Positions 20,651 through 28,090 of a stretch of 64,000 bases of DNA are shown here, piece after piece. Source of the stretch: Chloroflexota bacterium (GTDB taxonomy: Bacteria; Chloroflexota; Anaerolineae; Anaerolineales; Villigracilaceae); the NCBI GenBank assembly GCA_021414245.1, contig JAIOOU010000003.1, forward strand, positions 620,001 to 684,000, in the 5' to 3' direction. The translations under genes and the position numbers were made by a program. Each line of letters begins with the position of its first letter. Positions within the stretch are counted from its first letter, which is position 1. The notes under the pieces were generated by a model. It was given only the letters and a program-made list of their open reading frames with translations. It was not told where the DNA came from and did no database searches.

Positions 20651-21106
20651 TTAGCCTGTCAGAACGCGGTCAATGGTTTCGTGTATCGGTTCTGGCCCGG
20701 CTTCACCGAAGATTTCAAAATCTGTAATAATTTCGGCTGTAGCCCGGACCGTGGCAGCCACCGAGCAATATTTCTCTTCGGATAAATGAATGGCTTGCGC
20801 CACGGCTTTTTCTGTCAGGTTCTTCCCGCCGATTTTGTAGTGTAGATATATTTTCCGAAATGTCCAGGGCGGATCTTGATCCTGCTCACCGCTTGAACTG
20901 ATCTCGAGGCATGTCAGGTCCATGCGTTTCTTGTTCAGGATTTCGACCACATCCACTGCCGAGCAGGATGCCACGGCCAGCAGTAATAAGTCGGATGGTT
21001 TGATTCCGACTCCTTCGTCGGGGGTTGAGAGGACAACCGAGTGACGGGTCGAATCGATGCCGATAAATTGTTTTCCTTGAATCCATTTTACTGTTGCTGT
21101 ACTCAT
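20651..21106 (-). CDS. OsmC/Ohr-family peroxidase-like protein
   Basis: The 151-residue protein matches OsmC/YhfA: KWIQGKQFIGIDSTRHSVVLSTP at the N-terminus, the first redox Cys in LLLLAVASCSAVDVVEIL (residue about 49) and a YCSVAATVRATAEI segment with the second Cys near 116. These proteins reduce organic hydroperoxides with a Cys pair. It is divergent from a CxxC-type AhpD-like gene. No TGTAAC promoter was found in its upstream region, unlike the other redox genes nearby. Confidence 0.88.
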   Translation of the reverse strand: MSTATVKWIQGKQFIGIDSTRHSVVLSTPDEGVGIKPSDLLLLAVASCSAVDVVEILNKKRMDLTCLEISSSGEQDQDPPWTFRKIYLHYKIGGKNLTEKAVAQAIHLSEEKYCSVAATVRATAEIITDFEIFGEAGPEPIHETIDRVLTG

Positions 21107-21261
21107 ACGGCTCCTTGGTGTCTTTGATATTAAATCAGTGGATTTTGTTGATCAGGTCGTACCTTTTATTGCGATCAAAACCATGACGATCGCTGCGGCC
21201 TCAAAGTCATTTTCGCAAATCAAGGAGTAGGTATACAATTCCTGACATTGGAGAAAAAAAC

Positions 21262-21807
21262 ATGGACGCTTTCATTCAGCCGCCACAAAAAATTTCAATC
21301 GTGCTCCGATTTGGCATCTGGATTTCGGAGAAGATAACGGGGCGCAGGCTGCTCCCGGCCCGGATTCTGGCCTGGTATCCAAAAGCAGCAGTCGGATCCG
21401 GCATTCTCGAATCCCTTGTGGCCCATCATGATGGAGGCTTGAATGAACGCATGCTTAAATTGGTGCGCATCACGGCTTCATTTTCGGCAGCTTGTGCATT
21501 TTGCATCGATATGAATTCCCACGAACACGAGGCGTTGGATATCGGTGCCGAGGAAATTTCAGCTCTGCGTGGGCAACTGGAACTCGGACGTGTAGCCACG
21601 TTTTCCGCCCGGGAAAGGCTTGCCATACGGTATGCACAATTGATTTCGCAGACTCCGCTTATGTTCGACCCAGATTTCATCGAACAGATCAAAGCCAATT
21701 TCGATGAACGCGAGATGGTCATCCTCGCTTCCACAGCCGCCCAGGTTAATTACTGGGCGCGCCTCATCCAGGCTCTGGGGATTCCGCCTGCGGGATTTTC
21801 TGATTAA
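21262..21807 (+). CDS. Carboxymuconolactone decarboxylase / AhpD-like protein
   Basis: The 181-residue helical protein has the AhpD-type active site: KLVRITASFSAACAFCIDMNSHEHEAL, with CAFC (CxxC) and the following His. Family members are alkylhydroperoxidases or disulfide reductases. The helical core RERLAIRYAQLISQTPLMFDPDFIEQIK is typical. A GGAGAA site precedes the ATG. Its position between an OsmC gene and a thioredoxin operon supports a redox role. Confidence 0.88.
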   Translation: MDAFIQPPQKISIVLRFGIWISEKITGRRLLPARILAWYPKAAVGSGILESLVAHHDGGLNERMLKLVRITASFSAACAFCIDMNSHEHEALDIGAEEISALRGQLELGRVATFSARERLAIRYAQLISQTPLMFDPDFIEQIKANFDEREMVILASTAAQVNYWARLIQALGIPPAGFSD

Positions 21808-22338: not shown

Positions 22339-22364
22339 AGGGCACGATCGTTCAACCGTGCCCT
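22339..22364 (-). terminator. Weak hairpin between DUF2892 and thioredoxin genes
   Basis: AGGGCACG (22339-22346) pairs with CGTGCCCT (22357-22364) around a 10-base loop. On the minus strand it is followed by GTTTATAT, a poor U-run, so it may only reduce read-through into the thioredoxin gene. Confidence 0.4.
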
Positions 22365-22584: not shown

Positions 22585-22895
22585 TTGAGCCTCCTATGGC
22601 ACATGAAAAATAAAAGATTATCACTTATTTTGATGACGATGTCCCGAAAAAGTTACATCGCAGATTGGATAATTTGGATTTGATTCCGCGATTTCCCGTT
22701 CCTCCCGGATATTTAAAGTGAACTTTGTCCGGATAAACAGATTCGGCTACAGGCCGCATTTTTTGCTGTGCCTCCGCCATGGGCTGGCTGATCCGGCCCA
22801 GCCCACCCTTCTTTACCAAATCATTACAGAACTTTTTAATCACGCTTACAAAGAAAAACTACTCTTGAGGCATCAAATTGCCTGGAGGTTTTTTT
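22585..22895. other. Intergenic region between divergent redox operons
   Basis: These 311 bases hold no convincing gene. They contain the minus-strand ECF-type promoter (22632-22657) for the DUF2892/thioredoxin operon and the untranslated leader of the plus-strand ferredoxin-like gene, which has a good GGAGG site at 22884-22888. A 72-codon minus-strand frame here lacks protein-like composition and covers the promoter. Confidence 0.6.
22632..22657 (-). promoter_or_regulatory. ECF-type promoter, DUF2892/thioredoxin operon
   Basis: On the minus strand TGTAACTTT begins at 22657 and TCATC ends at 22632, with 15 bases between the TGTAAC and TCATC boxes. Three other redox promoters in this window have the same geometry and the identical TGTAACTTT. 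The -10-like box ends 47 bases before the DUF2892 start. Confidence 0.6.
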
Positions 22896-23750
22896 ATGTT
22901 CACTGTATTTGGAAAAAGGATACGATTGTTTCGTCCACGAAGCATTTGGGTGCGCAGAGTCGTTCAATGGGTTTTCTTTTTGTTGATCGCCTTCATCTCG
23001 GTCAACCACACGCTTGCAGAAAGCGGCGCTGGAATACCCGTCCTGTCCAGTGCGTCATTGCATGCGGTCTGTCCATTTGGGGGCGTGGAGACCCTCTATA
23101 CATTTGCGGCCGACGGCTTGCTTGTCAGGAAAATCCATGACTCTTCCCTGGTCCTGGCCGGCATCGTCCTCCTTCTGTCTATTTTGTTTGGTCCGGTATT
23201 TTGCGGATGGGTTTGCCCGCTTGGGACCGTTCAGGAATGGGCCGGGAAGTTAGGAAAAAGATTATTCAAGCGGCGTTACAACCACTTTGTCCCCGCGCGT
23301 ATCGACCCGGTTCTGCGCTATGTCCGCTATGGTGTTTTGGTTTGGGTTCTGTATATCACGGCCATGAGCGGCACTCTCATCTTTGAATCCTACGACCCGT
23401 ATTTTGCCCTCTTCAACTTCTGGAGCACGGAGGTGGCCTGGAGTGCCCTGGCTATTCTTGGTGCCACGCTTTTGCTCTCGGTCTTTGTTGAACGGCCCTG
23501 GTGCAAGTATGCCTGTCCCTATGGCGCCTTCCTGGGCATTACCAATTTGTTTCGCGTTTTCTCCATCAAGCGTGCAGAGTCCACCTGTAAAGCGGATGGG
23601 GCCTGTTCGATCATGTGCCCGATGAATATTCCAGTGGATGCTGTCAAGGTTGTCCGAGATCATCAATGTATCTCCTGTCTGGAGTGTACTTCTGAGGCGA
23701 TCTGCCCGGTTGCTAAAACCGTTGTGTTCAGTACGGGAGGTGTGAAATGA
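22896..23750 (+). CDS. NapH/CcoG-type membrane polyferredoxin (4Fe-4S binding)
   Basis: The 284-residue membrane protein starts at ATG 22896, set by GGAGG; an in-frame TTG at 22878 is weaker. It has about five transmembrane helices. NapH-like cysteine motifs are FCGWVCPLGTVQEW and WCKYACPYGAFLG at helix ends, followed by a C-terminal soluble part with two 4Fe-4S-type clusters (CKADGACSIMCPMN and CISCLECTSEAICPVAK). Such proteins pass electrons from quinol to periplasmic partners. It overlaps the next gene by 4 bases (ATGA), so that partner is probably cotranslated. Confidence 0.9.
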   Translation: MFTVFGKRIRLFRPRSIWVRRVVQWVFFLLIAFISVNHTLAESGAGIPVLSSASLHAVCPFGGVETLYTFAADGLLVRKIHDSSLVLAGIVLLLSILFGPVFCGWVCPLGTVQEWAGKLGKRLFKRRYNHFVPARIDPVLRYVRYGVLVWVLYITAMSGTLIFESYDPYFALFNFWSTEVAWSALAILGATLLLSVFVERPWCKYACPYGAFLGITNLFRVFSIKRAESTCKADGACSIMCPMNIPVDAVKVVRDHQCISCLECTSEAICPVAKTVVFSTGGVK

Positions 23751-24499
23751 CGCTGACTTCGAAACCTCTGGCACTGATCGTGCTGGTGATGCTGTTGGGC
23801 GGAATTGCCTTCTCGTCCAGTATGGGTTGGTGGACAACCGAATCCAGCAAACAACCTGCCACCTTTGAGGAAGGTGAATTTGCAGGGCAGGCAAATCCTG
23901 CTGATATTCGCGGCTCTTACACTTTTGGAGATATTGCCGGTTCATTTGCTGTCACTCCTGAAGTATTGGCGCAAGCATTTGGCGTCACAGGGGAGGATTC
24001 CTCCGCATTTGCGATCAAGGAATTGGAAGCGATTTATCTTGAGAGCGGATATGAAATTGGCACAGCCTCTGTTCGGTTATTTGTCGCCTATTACACAGGC
24101 TTGCCATTTGAAACAGCGGATCAGGATATTTACCTGCCGCGGTCCGCGACGGATATTTTGCTTTCGCTCGGAGATCTCACGCCAGAACAGATCGGGTACC
24201 TTGAAAAATACACGATTCCCACAGGCATAACAGCCGCCACTTTGGAACCTGCGGTCGGCTTATCCCCCTTGCCGGTTGACTCGTCTGCGCCCGCCAGCAC
24301 AGAATACAGTGTCAAGGGAAAAACCACCTTTGGGGAACTGCTCTCCTGGGGTGTGTCTTTGGAAATCATCGAAGGCATCATCGGCGCTCCTATGCCAGAC
24401 CCGGCGATGACCGTGAAGGATTTCGCATCTGCGGGCGGCCTGGATTTTGAAACACTCCGGCCCGCCCTGCAAATGGAGGTTGACAAGGTCAAACCCTAG
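23747..24499 (+). CDS. Exported protein with two related motifs, partner of the polyferredoxin
   Basis: This 250-residue protein has an N-terminal signal anchor (LALIVLVMLLGGIAFSSS). It contains two related motifs: IRGSYTFGDIAGSFAVTPEV near 53 and VKGKTTFGELLSWGVSLEII near 188, each followed by an FGV- or IGA-like turn and an acidic helix. I do not recognise a named domain; such modules recur beside 4Fe-4S membrane proteins in Chloroflexota, from memory. The ATGA overlap with the polyferredoxin gene implies a joint complex outside the membrane. No Cys or haem motif is present, so it is more likely structural or binding than electron-carrying. Confidence 0.6.
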   Translation: MTLTSKPLALIVLVMLLGGIAFSSSMGWWTTESSKQPATFEEGEFAGQANPADIRGSYTFGDIAGSFAVTPEVLAQAFGVTGEDSSAFAIKELEAIYLESGYEIGTASVRLFVAYYTGLPFETADQDIYLPRSATDILLSLGDLTPEQIGYLEKYTIPTGITAATLEPAVGLSPLPVDSSAPASTEYSVKGKTTFGELLSWGVSLEIIEGIIGAPMPDPAMTVKDFASAGGLDFETLRPALQMEVDKVKP

Positions 24500-24595
24500 G
24501 TCACGGTATGTGGGTTCTGTATGCATTCCGGTCAATTTGCCGGTTGGGGACAAGGCATTGCCTTCGTTTTAATCGGGAAGTTGCGCGCTAAATTT

Positions 24596-24621
24596 TGTAA
24601 CTTTTCTCTTCATTCTGCATC
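24596..24621 (+). promoter_or_regulatory. ECF-type promoter, rhodanese gene
   Basis: TGTAACTTT starts at 24596 and GCATC occupies 24617-24621, with 15 bases between TGTAAC and GCATC. GCATCCAA extends the match to the promoter at 26716. The box ends 39 bases before the rhodanese ATG. Confidence 0.65.
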
Positions 24622-24660
24622 CAACCCACTGGCATAAATCTGTTATTGGAGAGAAAATTA

Positions 24661-25014
24661 ATGAATCTACTGTCGTCTTTATTTGGCGCACCTTTGCAGT
24701 CGCTGACCGCCTCGGAGTTGGGCGAAAAACTCAAATCAGGTCAACCAATGCTCGTGTTGGATGTGCGCCAGCCCGAGGAATATGGGGATGGGCATATTGC
24801 CGGGTCAAAACTGATTCCCTTGGGCGAGTTGAGTAAACGCATGAATGAGTTGCCCAAGAATAGGGAGATCATATGTGTCTGCGCCTCGGGAAGCCGCAGT
24901 CAATCTGCAACACGACTTCTGGTCGGCCAGGGTTTTGATGCATCTAACATGGATGGCGGTATGTTCATGTGGCAACGCGCCAAATTGCCTGTCAAGAAGG
25001 GCGTTGACGCCTAG
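24661..25014 (+). CDS. Rhodanese-domain protein (single domain)
   Basis: The 117-residue cytoplasmic protein has the rhodanese fold: LVLDVRQPEEYGDGHIAGSKLIPLGEL and the active-site loop ICVCASGSRSQSA with a catalytic Cys that carries persulfide sulfur. GGAGAG before ATG 24661 sets the start; the upstream in-frame TTG is not needed. Preceded by an ECF-type promoter and followed by a strong hairpin. Likely role: sulfane sulfur transfer or thiol repair in the redox regulon. Confidence 0.9.
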   Translation: MNLLSSLFGAPLQSLTASELGEKLKSGQPMLVLDVRQPEEYGDGHIAGSKLIPLGELSKRMNELPKNREIICVCASGSRSQSATRLLVGQGFDASNMDGGMFMWQRAKLPVKKGVDA

Positions 25015-25041
25015 CACTTACTTTAGCCTGTGTAAAGAAAT

Positions 25042-25077
25042 AGCAAGCCTCCGCGAACTTGTTCGCGGAGGCTTGCT
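25042..25077 (+). terminator. Strong hairpin after the rhodanese gene
   Basis: AGCAAGCCTCCGCGAA pairs perfectly over 16 bp with TTCGCGGAGGCTTGCT around a CTTG loop. There is no T-run after it (TGACTA follows), so it may be an RNA-stabilising or factor-dependent 3' end. Confidence 0.6.
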
Positions 25078-25164
25078 TGACTAAAGACAACGAAAAACCT
25101 GACATCTGGGCCATTCTTCTTCGGGGAATGAGTGTGCATCCATTTGTGGCGGAAAAATCAACAG

Positions 25165-25205
25165 CCTGTTCTGCACGAATTCGTCCATCGGAACAGGTTT
25201 TTTTC
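25165..25205 (+). terminator. Second hairpin with T-run before the OsmC promoter
   Basis: CCTGTTC (25165-25171) pairs with GAACAGG (25191-25197), enclosing the self-complementary ACGAATTCGT, and is followed by seven T and TCTTTA. This is a plausible intrinsic terminator isolating the OsmC promoter from upstream transcripts. Confidence 0.6.
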
Positions 25206-25262
25206 TTTATTGAAAGCAAGGATTTGCTTTCGCCACTATGGTCTGTGGTTTCAATTATGGCC

Positions 25263-25288
25263 TGTAACTTTTTTGGAATTAGCGCATC
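25263..25288 (+). promoter_or_regulatory. ECF-type promoter, OsmC / sigma / anti-sigma unit
   Basis: TGTAACTTT starts at 25263 and GCATC lies at 25284-25288, with the same 15-base spacing as the other redox promoters. It ends 35 bases before the OsmC ATG. Because the ECF sigma gene begins 77 bases after the OsmC stop without a terminator, read-through would make the sigma autoregulated. Confidence 0.65.
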
Positions 25289-25323
25289 AAATATTTATCT
25301 AAATAACTCAGGAGCATAAAAAC

Positions 25324-25725
25324 ATGGAAATGATTATTGACTTCCCGGGCGGTTCTCGCGTGGATGCCCATTTTGGAGGGCACACAGTTGCCACCGATCA
25401 GCCTCCGGTTGCGAGCGCGCCAACCCCTTTTGCGGTATTTCTCGCCTCGATTGGCACTTGTGCAGGGATTTATGTCCTTGGGTTTTGCCAGCAAAGGAAC
25501 CTCCCGACGGATGGGATTCGGATCGTCCAGCGAACGCACAGCAGCCCCGTGAGTCACATGGTCGAGAAAATTGATCTGGAAATCCAGGTCCCGGCGGAAT
25601 TTCCTGAAAAATACCGCGCATCGTTGATTCATTCCGCGGAATTGTGCGCGGTCAAGAAGCACCTGGAAAACCCGCCGAAATTTGATGTCACCACCAAGGT
25701 CTACGAAGCCACCACCGCAATATAG
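25324..25725 (+). CDS. OsmC-family protein
   Basis: The 133-residue protein is OsmC/YhfA-like: an N-terminal strand MIIDFPGGSRVDAHFGG, a PFAVFLASIGTCAGIYVLGFC helix bearing the first redox Cys (about 47) and SAELCAVKKHLENPPKF with the second (about 106). The spacing fits peroxidatic and resolving Cys of OsmC. It precedes the ECF sigma gene and carries the island's TGTAAC promoter. Compared with the copy at 20651 it is shorter at the N-terminus. Confidence 0.88.
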   Translation: MEMIIDFPGGSRVDAHFGGHTVATDQPPVASAPTPFAVFLASIGTCAGIYVLGFCQQRNLPTDGIRIVQRTHSSPVSHMVEKIDLEIQVPAEFPEKYRASLIHSAELCAVKKHLENPPKFDVTTKVYEATTAI

Positions 25726-25802
25726 AACGGCTTGACCATTTTGTTTGAATGTTTCCAGCAGGTGTATACTGGTTCCAATTACTGGATCGCTGGAAACACA
25801 TC

Positions 25803-26417
25803 ATGACAACCGAAAACACAATGCCGGATATTTCCATTGAAGCTCTGCGCCAGGGAGATCGGTCAGAATTTGCCAGACTGGTGGATGCCTATTCCGCCCC
25901 CATCTACCACTTGGGGCTGCGTATGCTTGGGAACGAACAGGATGCTGAGGACGTATTGCAGAATACGTTTATCAATGCCCTGACCCATCTGCACGGTTTT
26001 GAAGGACGCTCCAGCATTTTGACCTGGCTGTATCGCATTGCGGCCAATGAAGCCCTGATGACCTTGCGACGCGGGCGGCCTGAAGTTAATATTGACGATC
26101 CCGTTGATTCCGGCGATGACGGCGAAGCGTTGCCCCCAACCCAATTTGTGGATTGGAGCGCGCTGCCGGAGGATGAACTGCTCTCTGCAGAGGGTAAACA
26201 GGCGCTTGACGCCGCCATTCAAAGTCTGCCGGAAAATTTACGGATGGTCTTCCTGCTGCGCGACATTCAGGAGTTGTCGATAAGGGATGTGGCGTCTGCA
26301 CTTGACCTGACCGAAGCGAATGTAAAGGTGCGTCTCCTCAGGGCGCGTTTATTGTTGCGTGAACGATTGTCTTTTTATTATGGTGAACGGATGAGGAAGG
26401 AGAAGACGAATGGCTGA
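25803..26417 (+). CDS. ECF-type RNA polymerase sigma factor
   Basis: The 204-residue protein has sigma region 2 (residues about 20-90: YHLGLRMLGNEQDAEDVLQN, EGRSSILTWLYRIAANEALM) and region 4 (about 140-195: SLPENLRMVFLLRDIQELSI, VASALDLTEANVKVRLLRAR) and no region 1.1 or 3, as in ECF sigma factors. I start it at 25803 (MTTENTMP). It overlaps the anti-sigma gene by 8 bases. It is the obvious candidate to read the four TGTAACTTT promoters around it. Its own direct promoter may be TTGTTT-18-TATACT at 25741-25770. Confidence 0.92.
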   Translation: MTTENTMPDISIEALRQGDRSEFARLVDAYSAPIYHLGLRMLGNEQDAEDVLQNTFINALTHLHGFEGRSSILTWLYRIAANEALMTLRRGRPEVNIDDPVDSGDDGEALPPTQFVDWSALPEDELLSAEGKQALDAAIQSLPENLRMVFLLRDIQELSIRDVASALDLTEANVKVRLLRARLLLRERLSFYYGERMRKEKTNG

Positions 26418-26679
26418 AACTACTTTTACCAGTTGCGAAGGGCTGCTGGGATCCCTCTCTGATTATATCGATGGCGAATTGGGGGCGGAGTTGTGCCGGC
26501 AGATCGAAAAACATGTTGCGGAATGTGAGAACTGCCGCATCGTGGTTGATACGACCCGCAAGACGATTGACCTCGTCCACGTTTCAAACGCCTCCGAAAC
26601 TGGCCTGCCGGAGGATGTGCGCGATCGGCTCTTCAAGAGACTTAATCTCGATGACTATTTGAAGCCATCCGCAAAATAA
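26410..26679 (+). CDS. Zinc-binding anti-sigma factor (ZAS/zf-HC2)
   Basis: The 89-residue protein has the ZAS signature: Cys9 in TSCEGLLGSLSDYIDGEL and His35-x3-Cys39-x2-Cys42 in KHVAECENC. In RsrA and ChrR such residues bind zinc and release the sigma when thiols are oxidised. There is no membrane segment, so it is a cytoplasmic, probably redox-sensing switch. It is translationally coupled to the sigma gene by an 8-base overlap. The short C-terminus (LFKRLNLDDYLKPSAK) leaves little besides the sigma-binding fold. Confidence 0.9.
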   Translation: MAETTFTSCEGLLGSLSDYIDGELGAELCRQIEKHVAECENCRIVVDTTRKTIDLVHVSNASETGLPEDVRDRLFKRLNLDDYLKPSAK

Positions 26680-26715
26680 AATATAAAACGAGAAAGAGGG
26701 GGATTGCCTGCGGTT

Positions 26716-26741
26716 TGTAACTTTCCTTGTCTGTTTGCATC
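26716..26741 (+). promoter_or_regulatory. ECF-type promoter, protein disulfide oxidoreductase operon
   Basis: TGTAACTTT starts at 26716 and GCATC lies at 26737-26741, with 15 bases between TGTAAC and GCATC. GCATCCAA matches the rhodanese promoter. The box ends 66 bases before the ATG at 26808. Confidence 0.65.
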
Positions 26742-26807: not shown

Positions 26808-27473
26808 ATGGAAAAACTTCTCAACGAACAAGTTGCAAGCCAGATCAGCCAGACATTCGCGCAAATGAAGGAACCGGTGCAGATCCTGTTTTTTGGGTCC
26901 CGGGATAACTGTGAGTACTGTGCCGATACGCGCCAGCTTCTTGAGGAAGTCGCCGCGATGGATGACAAACTGGGTTTGAGTATCTACGACCTTCAGGATA
27001 ATGCAGACATCGCGCAGAAATTCAATGTTGTCAGAACACCCGCAATTGTGATCGCCGCCAGGGATGATGCCCAGGTCACCGATTTGGGGATTCAATATTC
27101 AGGCATTCCGGCAGGACACGAATTTGGAACTTTGATTAATGATATTTTGCTCGTATCCGGCCGTGACTCTGGCCTGAGCGCAGAAGCACGCGAGTTCTTA
27201 AAGAATCTCGACAAGCCGTTGCACCTGCAGGTGTTTGTCACACCCAGCTGTCCGCACTGTCCCCGGGCCGTCTTATTGGCTCACCAAATGGCAATGGAAA
27301 ACCCGGCCATGATTCGTGCAGAGGGCGTTGAAGCGACGGAATTTCCTGAATTGGCAGACCAATTCAACGTTAGGGGGGTTCCGCAGACGGTCATCAATGC
27401 CGGCAGTGGAACCGTCGTGGGGGCGGTGCCCGAGAAGAATCTGCTGGCTGAGATTATGCAGGCGGTTAACTAG
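26808..27473 (+). CDS. Protein disulfide oxidoreductase (two thioredoxin folds)
   Basis: The 221-residue protein consists of two thioredoxin-like folds in tandem, as in PDO/glutaredoxin-like proteins of thermophiles and some bacteria. The first has CEYC (Cys35, Cys38), the second CPHC (Cys148, Cys151) with the cis-Pro loop VRGVPQTV. These proteins shuffle disulfides and accept electrons from thioredoxin reductase. It stands first in an operon behind a TGTAAC promoter and is followed 29 bases later by a TlpA-like gene. Confidence 0.92.
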   Translation: MEKLLNEQVASQISQTFAQMKEPVQILFFGSRDNCEYCADTRQLLEEVAAMDDKLGLSIYDLQDNADIAQKFNVVRTPAIVIAARDDAQVTDLGIQYSGIPAGHEFGTLINDILLVSGRDSGLSAEAREFLKNLDKPLHLQVFVTPSCPHCPRAVLLAHQMAMENPAMIRAEGVEATEFPELADQFNVRGVPQTVINAGSGTVVGAVPEKNLLAEIMQAVN

Positions 27474-27502: not shown

Positions 27503-28090
27503 ATGCCAAAAAGATATCATCGCCGTAGAAAGACGAGATCCAAACTGGGTCTCGTCTATATCGTGGGTGCCGGTTTCATGGTGCTGGGTCTGGCGGCCTT
27601 CTTTATGTTGCGGGACACAGCCAGCGCCACCGAACCCCAGCCAGCTTCCCGGTCCGTCACTCCAGTGGAGGTGAATTATCCCGCCCCAGGGCTTTCCCTC
27701 CAAAACGTGAATGGACAGATCGAATCCCTGGCCGATTATCGTGACAAAATTGTCCTGGTTAATAACTGGGCCACCTGGTGCCCGCCCTGCAAGGCCGAGA
27801 TCCCGACTCTTGAAGCTTATTATCAAATACATGCCGTGGAGGGTTTTGTGATTATTGGGATTGAAGCCGGCGGGCGTCAAAACGATGTTCTGCAATTTTC
27901 CCAGGAGCATGGCATTACTTATCCGGTCTGGTTTGATCTGGAGAGTGCCGCCATTAACGCGTTTCACAATGGGAGCCTGCCAAGCTCCTATGTGATCGAC
28001 CGTGCTGGTATTGTACGACTTGCCTGGGTCGGGGAAATAAATCACGAGATGCTGGAAAAATATGTAACTCCGTTACTGCGTGAAGATTAA
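27503..28090 (+). CDS. Membrane-anchored TlpA/ResA-type thioredoxin
   Basis: The 195-residue protein has an N-terminal basic cytoplasmic stretch (PKRYHRRRKTRSK), one membrane helix (about 15-36) and an extracytoplasmic redoxin domain with WCPPC (Cys93, Cys96) after NNWAT. The fold continues to a GSLPSSYVIDRAG cis-Pro loop. ResA/TlpA proteins reduce disulfides outside the membrane, for instance for cytochrome c maturation; a CcdA-type electron supplier lies at 34525. Start 27503 is preferred to an upstream TTG. It follows the disulfide oxidoreductase gene. Confidence 0.9.
   Translation: MPKRYHRRRKTRSKLGLVYIVGAGFMVLGLAAFFMLRDTASATEPQPASRSVTPVEVNYPAPGLSLQNVNGQIESLADYRDKIVLVNNWATWCPPCKAEIPTLEAYYQIHAVEGFVIIGIEAGGRQNDVLQFSQEHGITYPVWFDLESAAINAFHNGSLPSSYVIDRAGIVRLAWVGEINHEMLEKYVTPLLRED

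Follow-up and report, generated by a model that had tools for sequence, protein, structure and literature searches.

A small set of thiol and disulfide genes in a bacterium of the Chloroflexota (Anaerolineales, Villigracilaceae; assembly GCA_021414245.1) is very probably controlled by its own extracytoplasmic function (ECF) sigma factor through four promoters of identical geometry. The genes lie in a stretch of 64,000 nucleotides of contig JAIOOU010000003.1 (positions 620,001 to 684,000), here called the window, and the sigma factor is encoded at 25803-26417 in window coordinates. According to the proposal as a whole, in which we place high confidence, the four sites would be promoters of this sigma factor, oxidation would release it to switch on a thiol regulon, a promoter at the start of the sigma gene would act as a brake, and in the clade of the window the loop would be positive. 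What is established here is a two-box motif, its link to the sigma gene across relatives, its place before thiol and disulfide genes and the cysteine pattern of the anti-sigma.

The original prediction, made from the letters of the window, described four sites (22657-22632 on the minus strand, 24596, 25263 and 26716) with the same geometry, each 35 to 66 bases ahead of a redox gene. This observation is confirmed, and its interpretation as ECF promoters of a local redox regulon is supported by the comparisons below. In each of the four, TGTAAC and (G/T)CATC are separated by exactly 15 bases, and the distances to the downstream start codons fall in the predicted range (Table 1). The pattern TGTAACTTT-N12-KCATC has four exact matches in the window and none in 100 dinucleotide shuffles. 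A search of both strands of the 64-kb window agreed with an earlier scan by eye in finding no TGTAACTTT beyond the four sites. Domain matches bore out the predicted genes (YgaP-like, rhodanese, OsmC-sigma-antisigma and disulfide oxidoreductase/TlpA-like); the membership of the thioredoxin gene behind the YgaP-like gene in the site 1 transcript is less sure because a terminator-like hairpin intervenes. The YgaP-like protein carries PF11127, presumably the domain earlier named DUF2892.

In the 3.87 Mb genome of the organism, TGTAAC-N15-KCATC occurs only at these four places, all within 4.1 kb, and the reversed pattern once; the exact form is confined to the cluster and not scattered at random. 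With up to two mismatches in the TGTAACTTT pattern, 41 matches were found against 33 for the reversed pattern, so that weaker matches are at chance level. Two of the three places with one mismatch lie within long open frames, and the third (L151) is ambiguous, no suitably placed gene start having been found there. Inspection of two of the 34 places with two mismatches brought the near-matches within long open frames to four. A still looser pattern matched 11 places, and its reverse 1; the seven places beyond the four sites, L151 among them, are weaker variants such as TGAAAC and TGGCAC.

Related genomes allow the motif to be followed beyond the window. As a non-circular test, 152 family genomes were searched with TGTAACTTT-N13-CATC, the pattern of the window itself; this returned 108 matches in 67 genomes (the window's four included), compared with 4 for the reversed pattern. 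The family consensus reads TG(C/T)AAC(T/C)TTT, 12-13 nt, (C/T)ATCNAA, with a spacing of 15 or 16, and the refined pattern had 252 matches in the family genomes against 7 when reversed. Orthologues of the sigma factor score far above its paralogues, except for one partial match, and are present in 27 of the 57 genomes of the genus. The search of the genome and of related Chloroflexota suggested with the original prediction revealed that the motif tracks the sigma gene: it is found in 80 of 88 genomes with the sigma and in 11 of 57 without it (Fisher p 4.7e-19). This count covers 145 family genomes and excludes G010, G012, G019, G021, G022, G023 and G024; two of these seven contain 3 matches between them. 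Nothing else in the data speaks as strongly as this co-occurrence for the sigma factor being the one that reads the motif. The sigma loci were then assembled into a set of 85, consisting of 84 fetched from relatives and the window; three sigma-bearing genomes were left out, namely G062, G072 and G090, the sigma of the last being a partial match at a contig end. A profile scan of the 85 loci unveiled 165 sites, at least one in every locus, compared to 4 in reversed sequence, a result that is partly circular because the profile was trained on 58 best-match sites at sigma starts and retrained on its finds in the same loci.

The sites are assigned to the sigma factor from sequence, and 11 genomes in which no sigma was detected nevertheless contain a match, so the sites might instead be operators of another regulator. 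We regard this as very unlikely. The sites consist of two separate conserved boxes, 15-16 nt apart, with a weakly conserved spacer, which is the usual layout of ECF promoters; the motif is tightly linked to this sigma gene, and dyad symmetry was not seen by eye.

Class-wide, 66 of the 199 genomes examined gave a sigma match of E 1e-40 or better, and 49 a match to the motif. High-scoring sites also lie close to two distant sigma genes (L221 and L217) whose products are only 39-44% identical, and the motif may extend beyond the class. As a separate observation, TGTAACTTTTCAC..CTGTAAGCATC-like sequences recur in G139 (L154) and in own-pattern matches of G100, G106, G107, G115, G137 and G150. Family genomes that lack the sigma are among those with such a sequence; in G139, the one of these that was inspected, it stands 143 nt ahead of a thioredoxin reductase-looking gene.

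The genes behind the sites are of few kinds, as the original prediction anticipated. Each site was labelled with the longest or best-matching open reading frame (ORF) starting within about 260-300 nt, so that some gaps are long. By this label, the 165 sites in sigma loci precede genes for the sigma (67), disulfide oxidoreductase (49), OsmC (22, plus 2 nearer to the other OsmC), thioredoxin with a transmembrane (TM) segment (6), YgaP-like proteins (4), rhodanese (3) and the anti-sigma (1), and 11 have no label. Forty scattered sites, the first in listing order outside the sigma loci and excluding loci already examined, are found before genes for OsmC (11), rhodanese (9), thioredoxin reductase (4), DUF302 proteins (3), disulfide oxidoreductase (2), YgaP-like proteins (2) and thioredoxin-TM (1); one thioredoxin reductase and one DUF302 protein were assigned by Pfam and the rest of these two groups by eye. 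Ten more scattered sites from 3 genomes, read by eye, include those of a disulfide oxidoreductase, 2 OsmC proteins, a thioredoxin (by Pfam), a thioredoxin-TM, a rhodanese and a groES-like gene 286 nt away. The description of the regulon as local holds for the genome of the window, where all four sites lie together, but other genera of the family carry the site dispersed, before the same kinds of genes. The presence of one site at unlinked genes of the same kind argues against duplication and points to thiol and disulfide chemistry. Copies spread by local duplication, which the clustering of the four exact sites within 4.1 kb might suggest, were rejected with a negligible remaining probability: the spacers of the four sites are unrelated in sequence, and relatives carry the site at scattered places.

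The chemistry itself leaves room for a second reading, in which the regulon would respond not to disulfide stress but to reactive sulfur species (sulfide, polysulfide) or to zinc. Rhodanese genes are often among the targets, YgaP-like genes turn up repeatedly, and both proteins are linked to sulfur transfer. We consider such a stimulus doubtful, though it keeps some weight, because most other assigned targets are disulfide oxidoreductase, OsmC, thioredoxin and thioredoxin reductase, and because the cysteines of the anti-sigma stand in an RsrA-like order.

The expected ECF sigma factor and HxxxCxxC zinc anti-sigma in the middle of the cluster were recovered by domain searches. The sigma factor (204 aa) has only regions 2 and 4 (Sigma70_r2 and Sigma70_r4_2, both over the Pfam cut-off), as is diagnostic of the ECF type (group 4). 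The adjoining gene codes for a protein with HxxxCxxC and a zf-HC2 match of 39.8 bits (cut-off 22.2), the features of a zinc anti-sigma factor (ZAS), and no membrane segment was seen in it by eye. Residues C9, C29, H35, C39 and C42 are shared by all 24 aligned anti-sigmas and also by 11 that reach more distant relatives. An ORF with this C-C-H-C-C pattern follows the sigma gene in 84 of the 85 family loci and in 18 of 20 loci from other families; in the one family exception, L139, the contig ends within the sigma gene. The parses behind these two counts searched for the whole pattern; one anti-sigma parse admitted HxxxCxxC ORFs only, which left just the two other cysteines free to vary. The anti-sigma of L079 has the full pattern.

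A comparison of the anti-sigma profile with the Protein Data Bank gave RsrA as the best match (E 6.8e-5), aligned over nearly the whole length. C9 and C42 align with RsrA cysteines and H35 with a histidine, and the other two positions are A and S in the solved construct, presumably through engineering. We take the redox switch of RsrA to be C11-C44, with C11 as the extra N-terminal cysteine matched by C9. The anti-sigma may thus work like RsrA, though it is not filed as an RsrA member. In a reducing cytoplasm it would hold the sigma factor through its zinc-bound Cys/His cluster, and oxidation of its cysteines, two of which match RsrA cysteines, would free the sigma factor. RNA polymerase carrying the freed sigma would then read the four window sites and turn on the genes for OsmC, rhodanese, the YgaP-like protein, disulfide oxidoreductase and the thioredoxin-like proteins.

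The original prediction drew a parallel to actinobacterial SigR/RsrA, with a different promoter (GGAAT...GTT). That system, taken here from Streptomyces and presumably group ECF12, likewise combines an ECF sigma factor with a small zinc-motif anti-sigma, RsrA, to which the profile aligns, and shares the extra N-terminal cysteine beside HxxxCxxC, here C9. It differs in that the sigma factor described here is closer to SigW (E 9.7e-30) than to the SigH chain 5zx2 (E 3.1e-13), which we assume to be of mycobacterial origin, and in that the anti-sigma reaches 39.2 bits where the cut-off of TIGR03988 is 62.5. Thioredoxin-type targets are common to both, trxB being a SigR target (PMC4921905). The promoters are distinct, with the family consensus TGYAACYTTT...YATCNAA here and GGGAAT-16 nt-(C/G)GTTG in the other system (PMC3489674). 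The cysteine order of the sensor upholds the parallel, whereas promoter and TIGR03988 score place the system outside the SigR/RsrA family.

A further arrangement concerns the sigma gene itself, which in 68 of the 85 loci has the site right at its start. The ATG lies 2-4 nt past CATC in 66 of these 68 loci and 1 and 7 nt past it in the other two; within this count the frame check covers 58 sites, and the sigma ATG is in frame in all 58. The spacer contains a Shine-Dalgarno core in 36 of the 68 sigma-start sites; shuffled sequences give 4.4, and of the 97 other sites 4 have a core at the corresponding place. Further upstream, 10-49 nt ahead of the site, 55 of 67 loci have a box of the form TATAnT or TAGAnT, which often reads TATACT (10.8 in shuffles). 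A sigma-70 two-box score upstream of sigma genes carries little signal (8.09 vs 7.77). Ahead of a possible anti-sigma start, a Shine-Dalgarno core is present in 82 of 84 loci, a count that allows several candidate starts and has no control.

The RpoE9-type promoter of Sinorhizobium meliloti has a similar box geometry (TGTCACA-N16-CGTC), and transcription from it has been mapped to a start 9 nt downstream (PMC3616915). With the same distance, RNA driven by the sigma factor should begin within the sigma ORF, after its start codon, and where a Shine-Dalgarno core lies in the spacer the sigma factor would presumably be translated from a longer RNA. Housekeeping polymerase at the upstream TATACT-type promoter would produce a basal level of sigma and anti-sigma, and in most relatives examined released sigma at the sigma-start promoter would yield extra anti-sigma but no sigma, which would constitute a brake. 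An experimental precedent for this logic is provided by SigH/RshA of Corynebacterium glutamicum, where housekeeping promoters serve sigH-rshA and a SigH-dependent promoter inside sigH (PrshA) serves rshA alone (PMC3489674). The position differs, as the C. glutamicum starts are 62 and 66 nt ahead of rshA (PMC3489674) and the promoter here runs into the sigma start codon. Polymerase sitting at the sigma-start site might also block the upstream promoter; a direct repressor role has been suggested for Streptomyces sigma-E (PMC10771440).

The close distance between CATC and ATG could also be favoured by leaderless transcription, in which case the sigma-start site would drive a sigma mRNA from its ATG and mediate ordinary positive autoregulation. 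We judge this unlikely, given that the S. meliloti distance would place the start inside the ORF, that the Shine-Dalgarno core in the spacer is useful to a longer transcript only, and that a TATACT-type box lies upstream in most loci. We take the RpoE9 type of S. meliloti to be group ECF41. Sigma factors of that group are described with a fused regulatory domain, whereas the sigma factor here has regions 2 and 4 only.

Two further sequence elements accompany the sigma-start sites. A GACATTNGTCC-like block occurs at most 160 nt upstream in 28 of 67 loci (e.g. L083, L091, L105), against 0.25 in shuffles, and is perhaps the operator of a second regulator. RTGGCAAA is found upstream in 25 of 67 loci, a count made with no control.

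A variant of this design is seen in the clade of the window. Fourteen loci, the window included, have the order site-osmC-sigma-antisigma and no sigma-start site, and a TATACT box ahead of the sigma gene can be read by eye in all 14. In a sigma tree with midpoint root, built from 74 of the 85 loci (11 were dropped because their frame estimate began upstream of a stop), these loci form a set of 15 together with L125 (support 100/99), which has a site neither ahead of the sigma gene nor at its start. The enclosing larger set (100/99) otherwise comprises 18 loci with a sigma-start site and one more without. Site 3 may be read through osmC into the sigma and anti-sigma genes. The osmC-sigma gap of the window showed no terminator-like hairpin, so that this site could drive the sigma gene in a positive loop, the sigma-start promoter having gone. 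An inverted repeat is apparent by eye in the osmC-sigma gap of L128, so that read-through may differ between species. The evolutionary scenario is evenly poised in our judgement: a thiol-stress sigma factor of the Anaerolineae would drive a promoter nested in its own translation start to produce anti-sigma only, and the clade containing the window would have swapped this brake for the osmC-sigma promoter, turning a negative into a positive loop.

Several points weigh against this account. The motif occurs in 11 genomes without a detected sigma, 5 of which are less than 90% complete, the strict pattern misses 8 of the 88 sigma-bearing genomes, and 8 of the 40 scattered sites and 3 of the ten others are not tied to any gene. 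Only 3 of 20 sigma loci of other families have a sigma-start site and 11 have no profile site in the stretch taken, so that outside the family the motif would appear to be different, weaker or elsewhere. The anti-sigma profile matches RsiW almost equally well (E 1.5e-4), the match to RsrA from a single anti-sigma sequence reaches only E 1.3, and the AlphaFold model of the anti-sigma is weak (pLDDT 67.6). Such zinc motifs can be structural, as in RsiW (PMC7406223), and the case for release by oxidation is built on the conservation of the cysteines. Finally, 32 of the 68 sigma-start sites have no recognised Shine-Dalgarno core, an extended -10 (TGnTATAnT) was found upstream of none of the 68, and the brake depends on a presumed transcription start.

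Table 1. Sites, genes and other elements of the cluster, in window coordinates
Feature	Position	Strand	Remarks
ECF promoter site 1 (candidate)	22632..22657	minus	TGTAACTTT...GTCATC; CATC to YgaP-like start codon 47 nt
ECF promoter site 2 (candidate)	24596..24621	plus	CATC to rhodanese ATG (24661) 39 nt
ECF promoter site 3 (candidate)	25263..25288	plus	CATC to osmC start 35 nt
ECF promoter site 4 (candidate)	26716..26741	plus	CATC to disulfide oxidoreductase start 66 nt
Thioredoxin with YgaP-like TM segment	21811..22329	minus	possibly part of site 1 transcript
Terminator-like hairpin	22339-22364	minus	between YgaP-like and thioredoxin genes
YgaP-like transmembrane protein, 66 aa	22384..22584	minus	PF11127; similar genes with site in loci L126, L127, L138
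Rhodanese, single-domain	24661..25014	plus	PF00581; site-bearing rhodanese genes elsewhere in family
16-bp hairpin	25042..25077		between rhodanese and osmC; terminator-like score on minus strand only
OsmC-family protein	25324..25725	plus	PF02566
TGTATACT, candidate housekeeping -10 box (TATACT) of sigma gene	25763..25770	plus	by eye
ECF sigma factor, 204 aa	25803..26417	plus	Sigma70_r2 + Sigma70_r4_2
Small zinc-motif anti-sigma, 89 aa	26410..26679	plus	C9, C29, H35, C39, C42 conserved; overlaps sigma end
Protein disulfide oxidoreductase	26808..27473	plus	TIGR02187, 267.9 bits, cut-off 185
TlpA/ResA-like thioredoxin-fold protein	27503..28090	plus	domain matches

Judging from its spacing, the TlpA/ResA-like gene possibly shares the site 4 operon. 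Between sites 1 and 2 (22878-24499) lie two genes that have no site of their own, one for a NapH-like 4Fe-4S protein and one for a protein of 250 aa without a Pfam match. Just beyond the cluster (20651-21807), a CMD-family gene and another gene for OsmC likewise lack a site. For the disulfide oxidoreductases of the sigma loci (e.g. L125, L130, L132), 41 of 64 pattern matches show an in-frame TGA where the second CxxC would open with a cysteine codon, and this TGA probably encodes selenocysteine. The disulfide oxidoreductase of the window has TGT at that codon, though its own genome holds a SelB match over the cut-off.

No published description of this regulon was found among the matches listed in a literature search, which is not proof that none exists, and no described stress sigma regulon in such Anaerolineales or Chloroflexota was among the matches listed. 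The system offers a testable stress regulon of the Chloroflexota, complete with a sensor, a list of targets and a promoter code for which any genome can be searched. A promoter running into the start codon of its sigma gene would be a compact way, found in nature, of building a sigma circuit that limits itself, and the clade of the window, in which the loop seems to have switched sign, represents a natural experiment.

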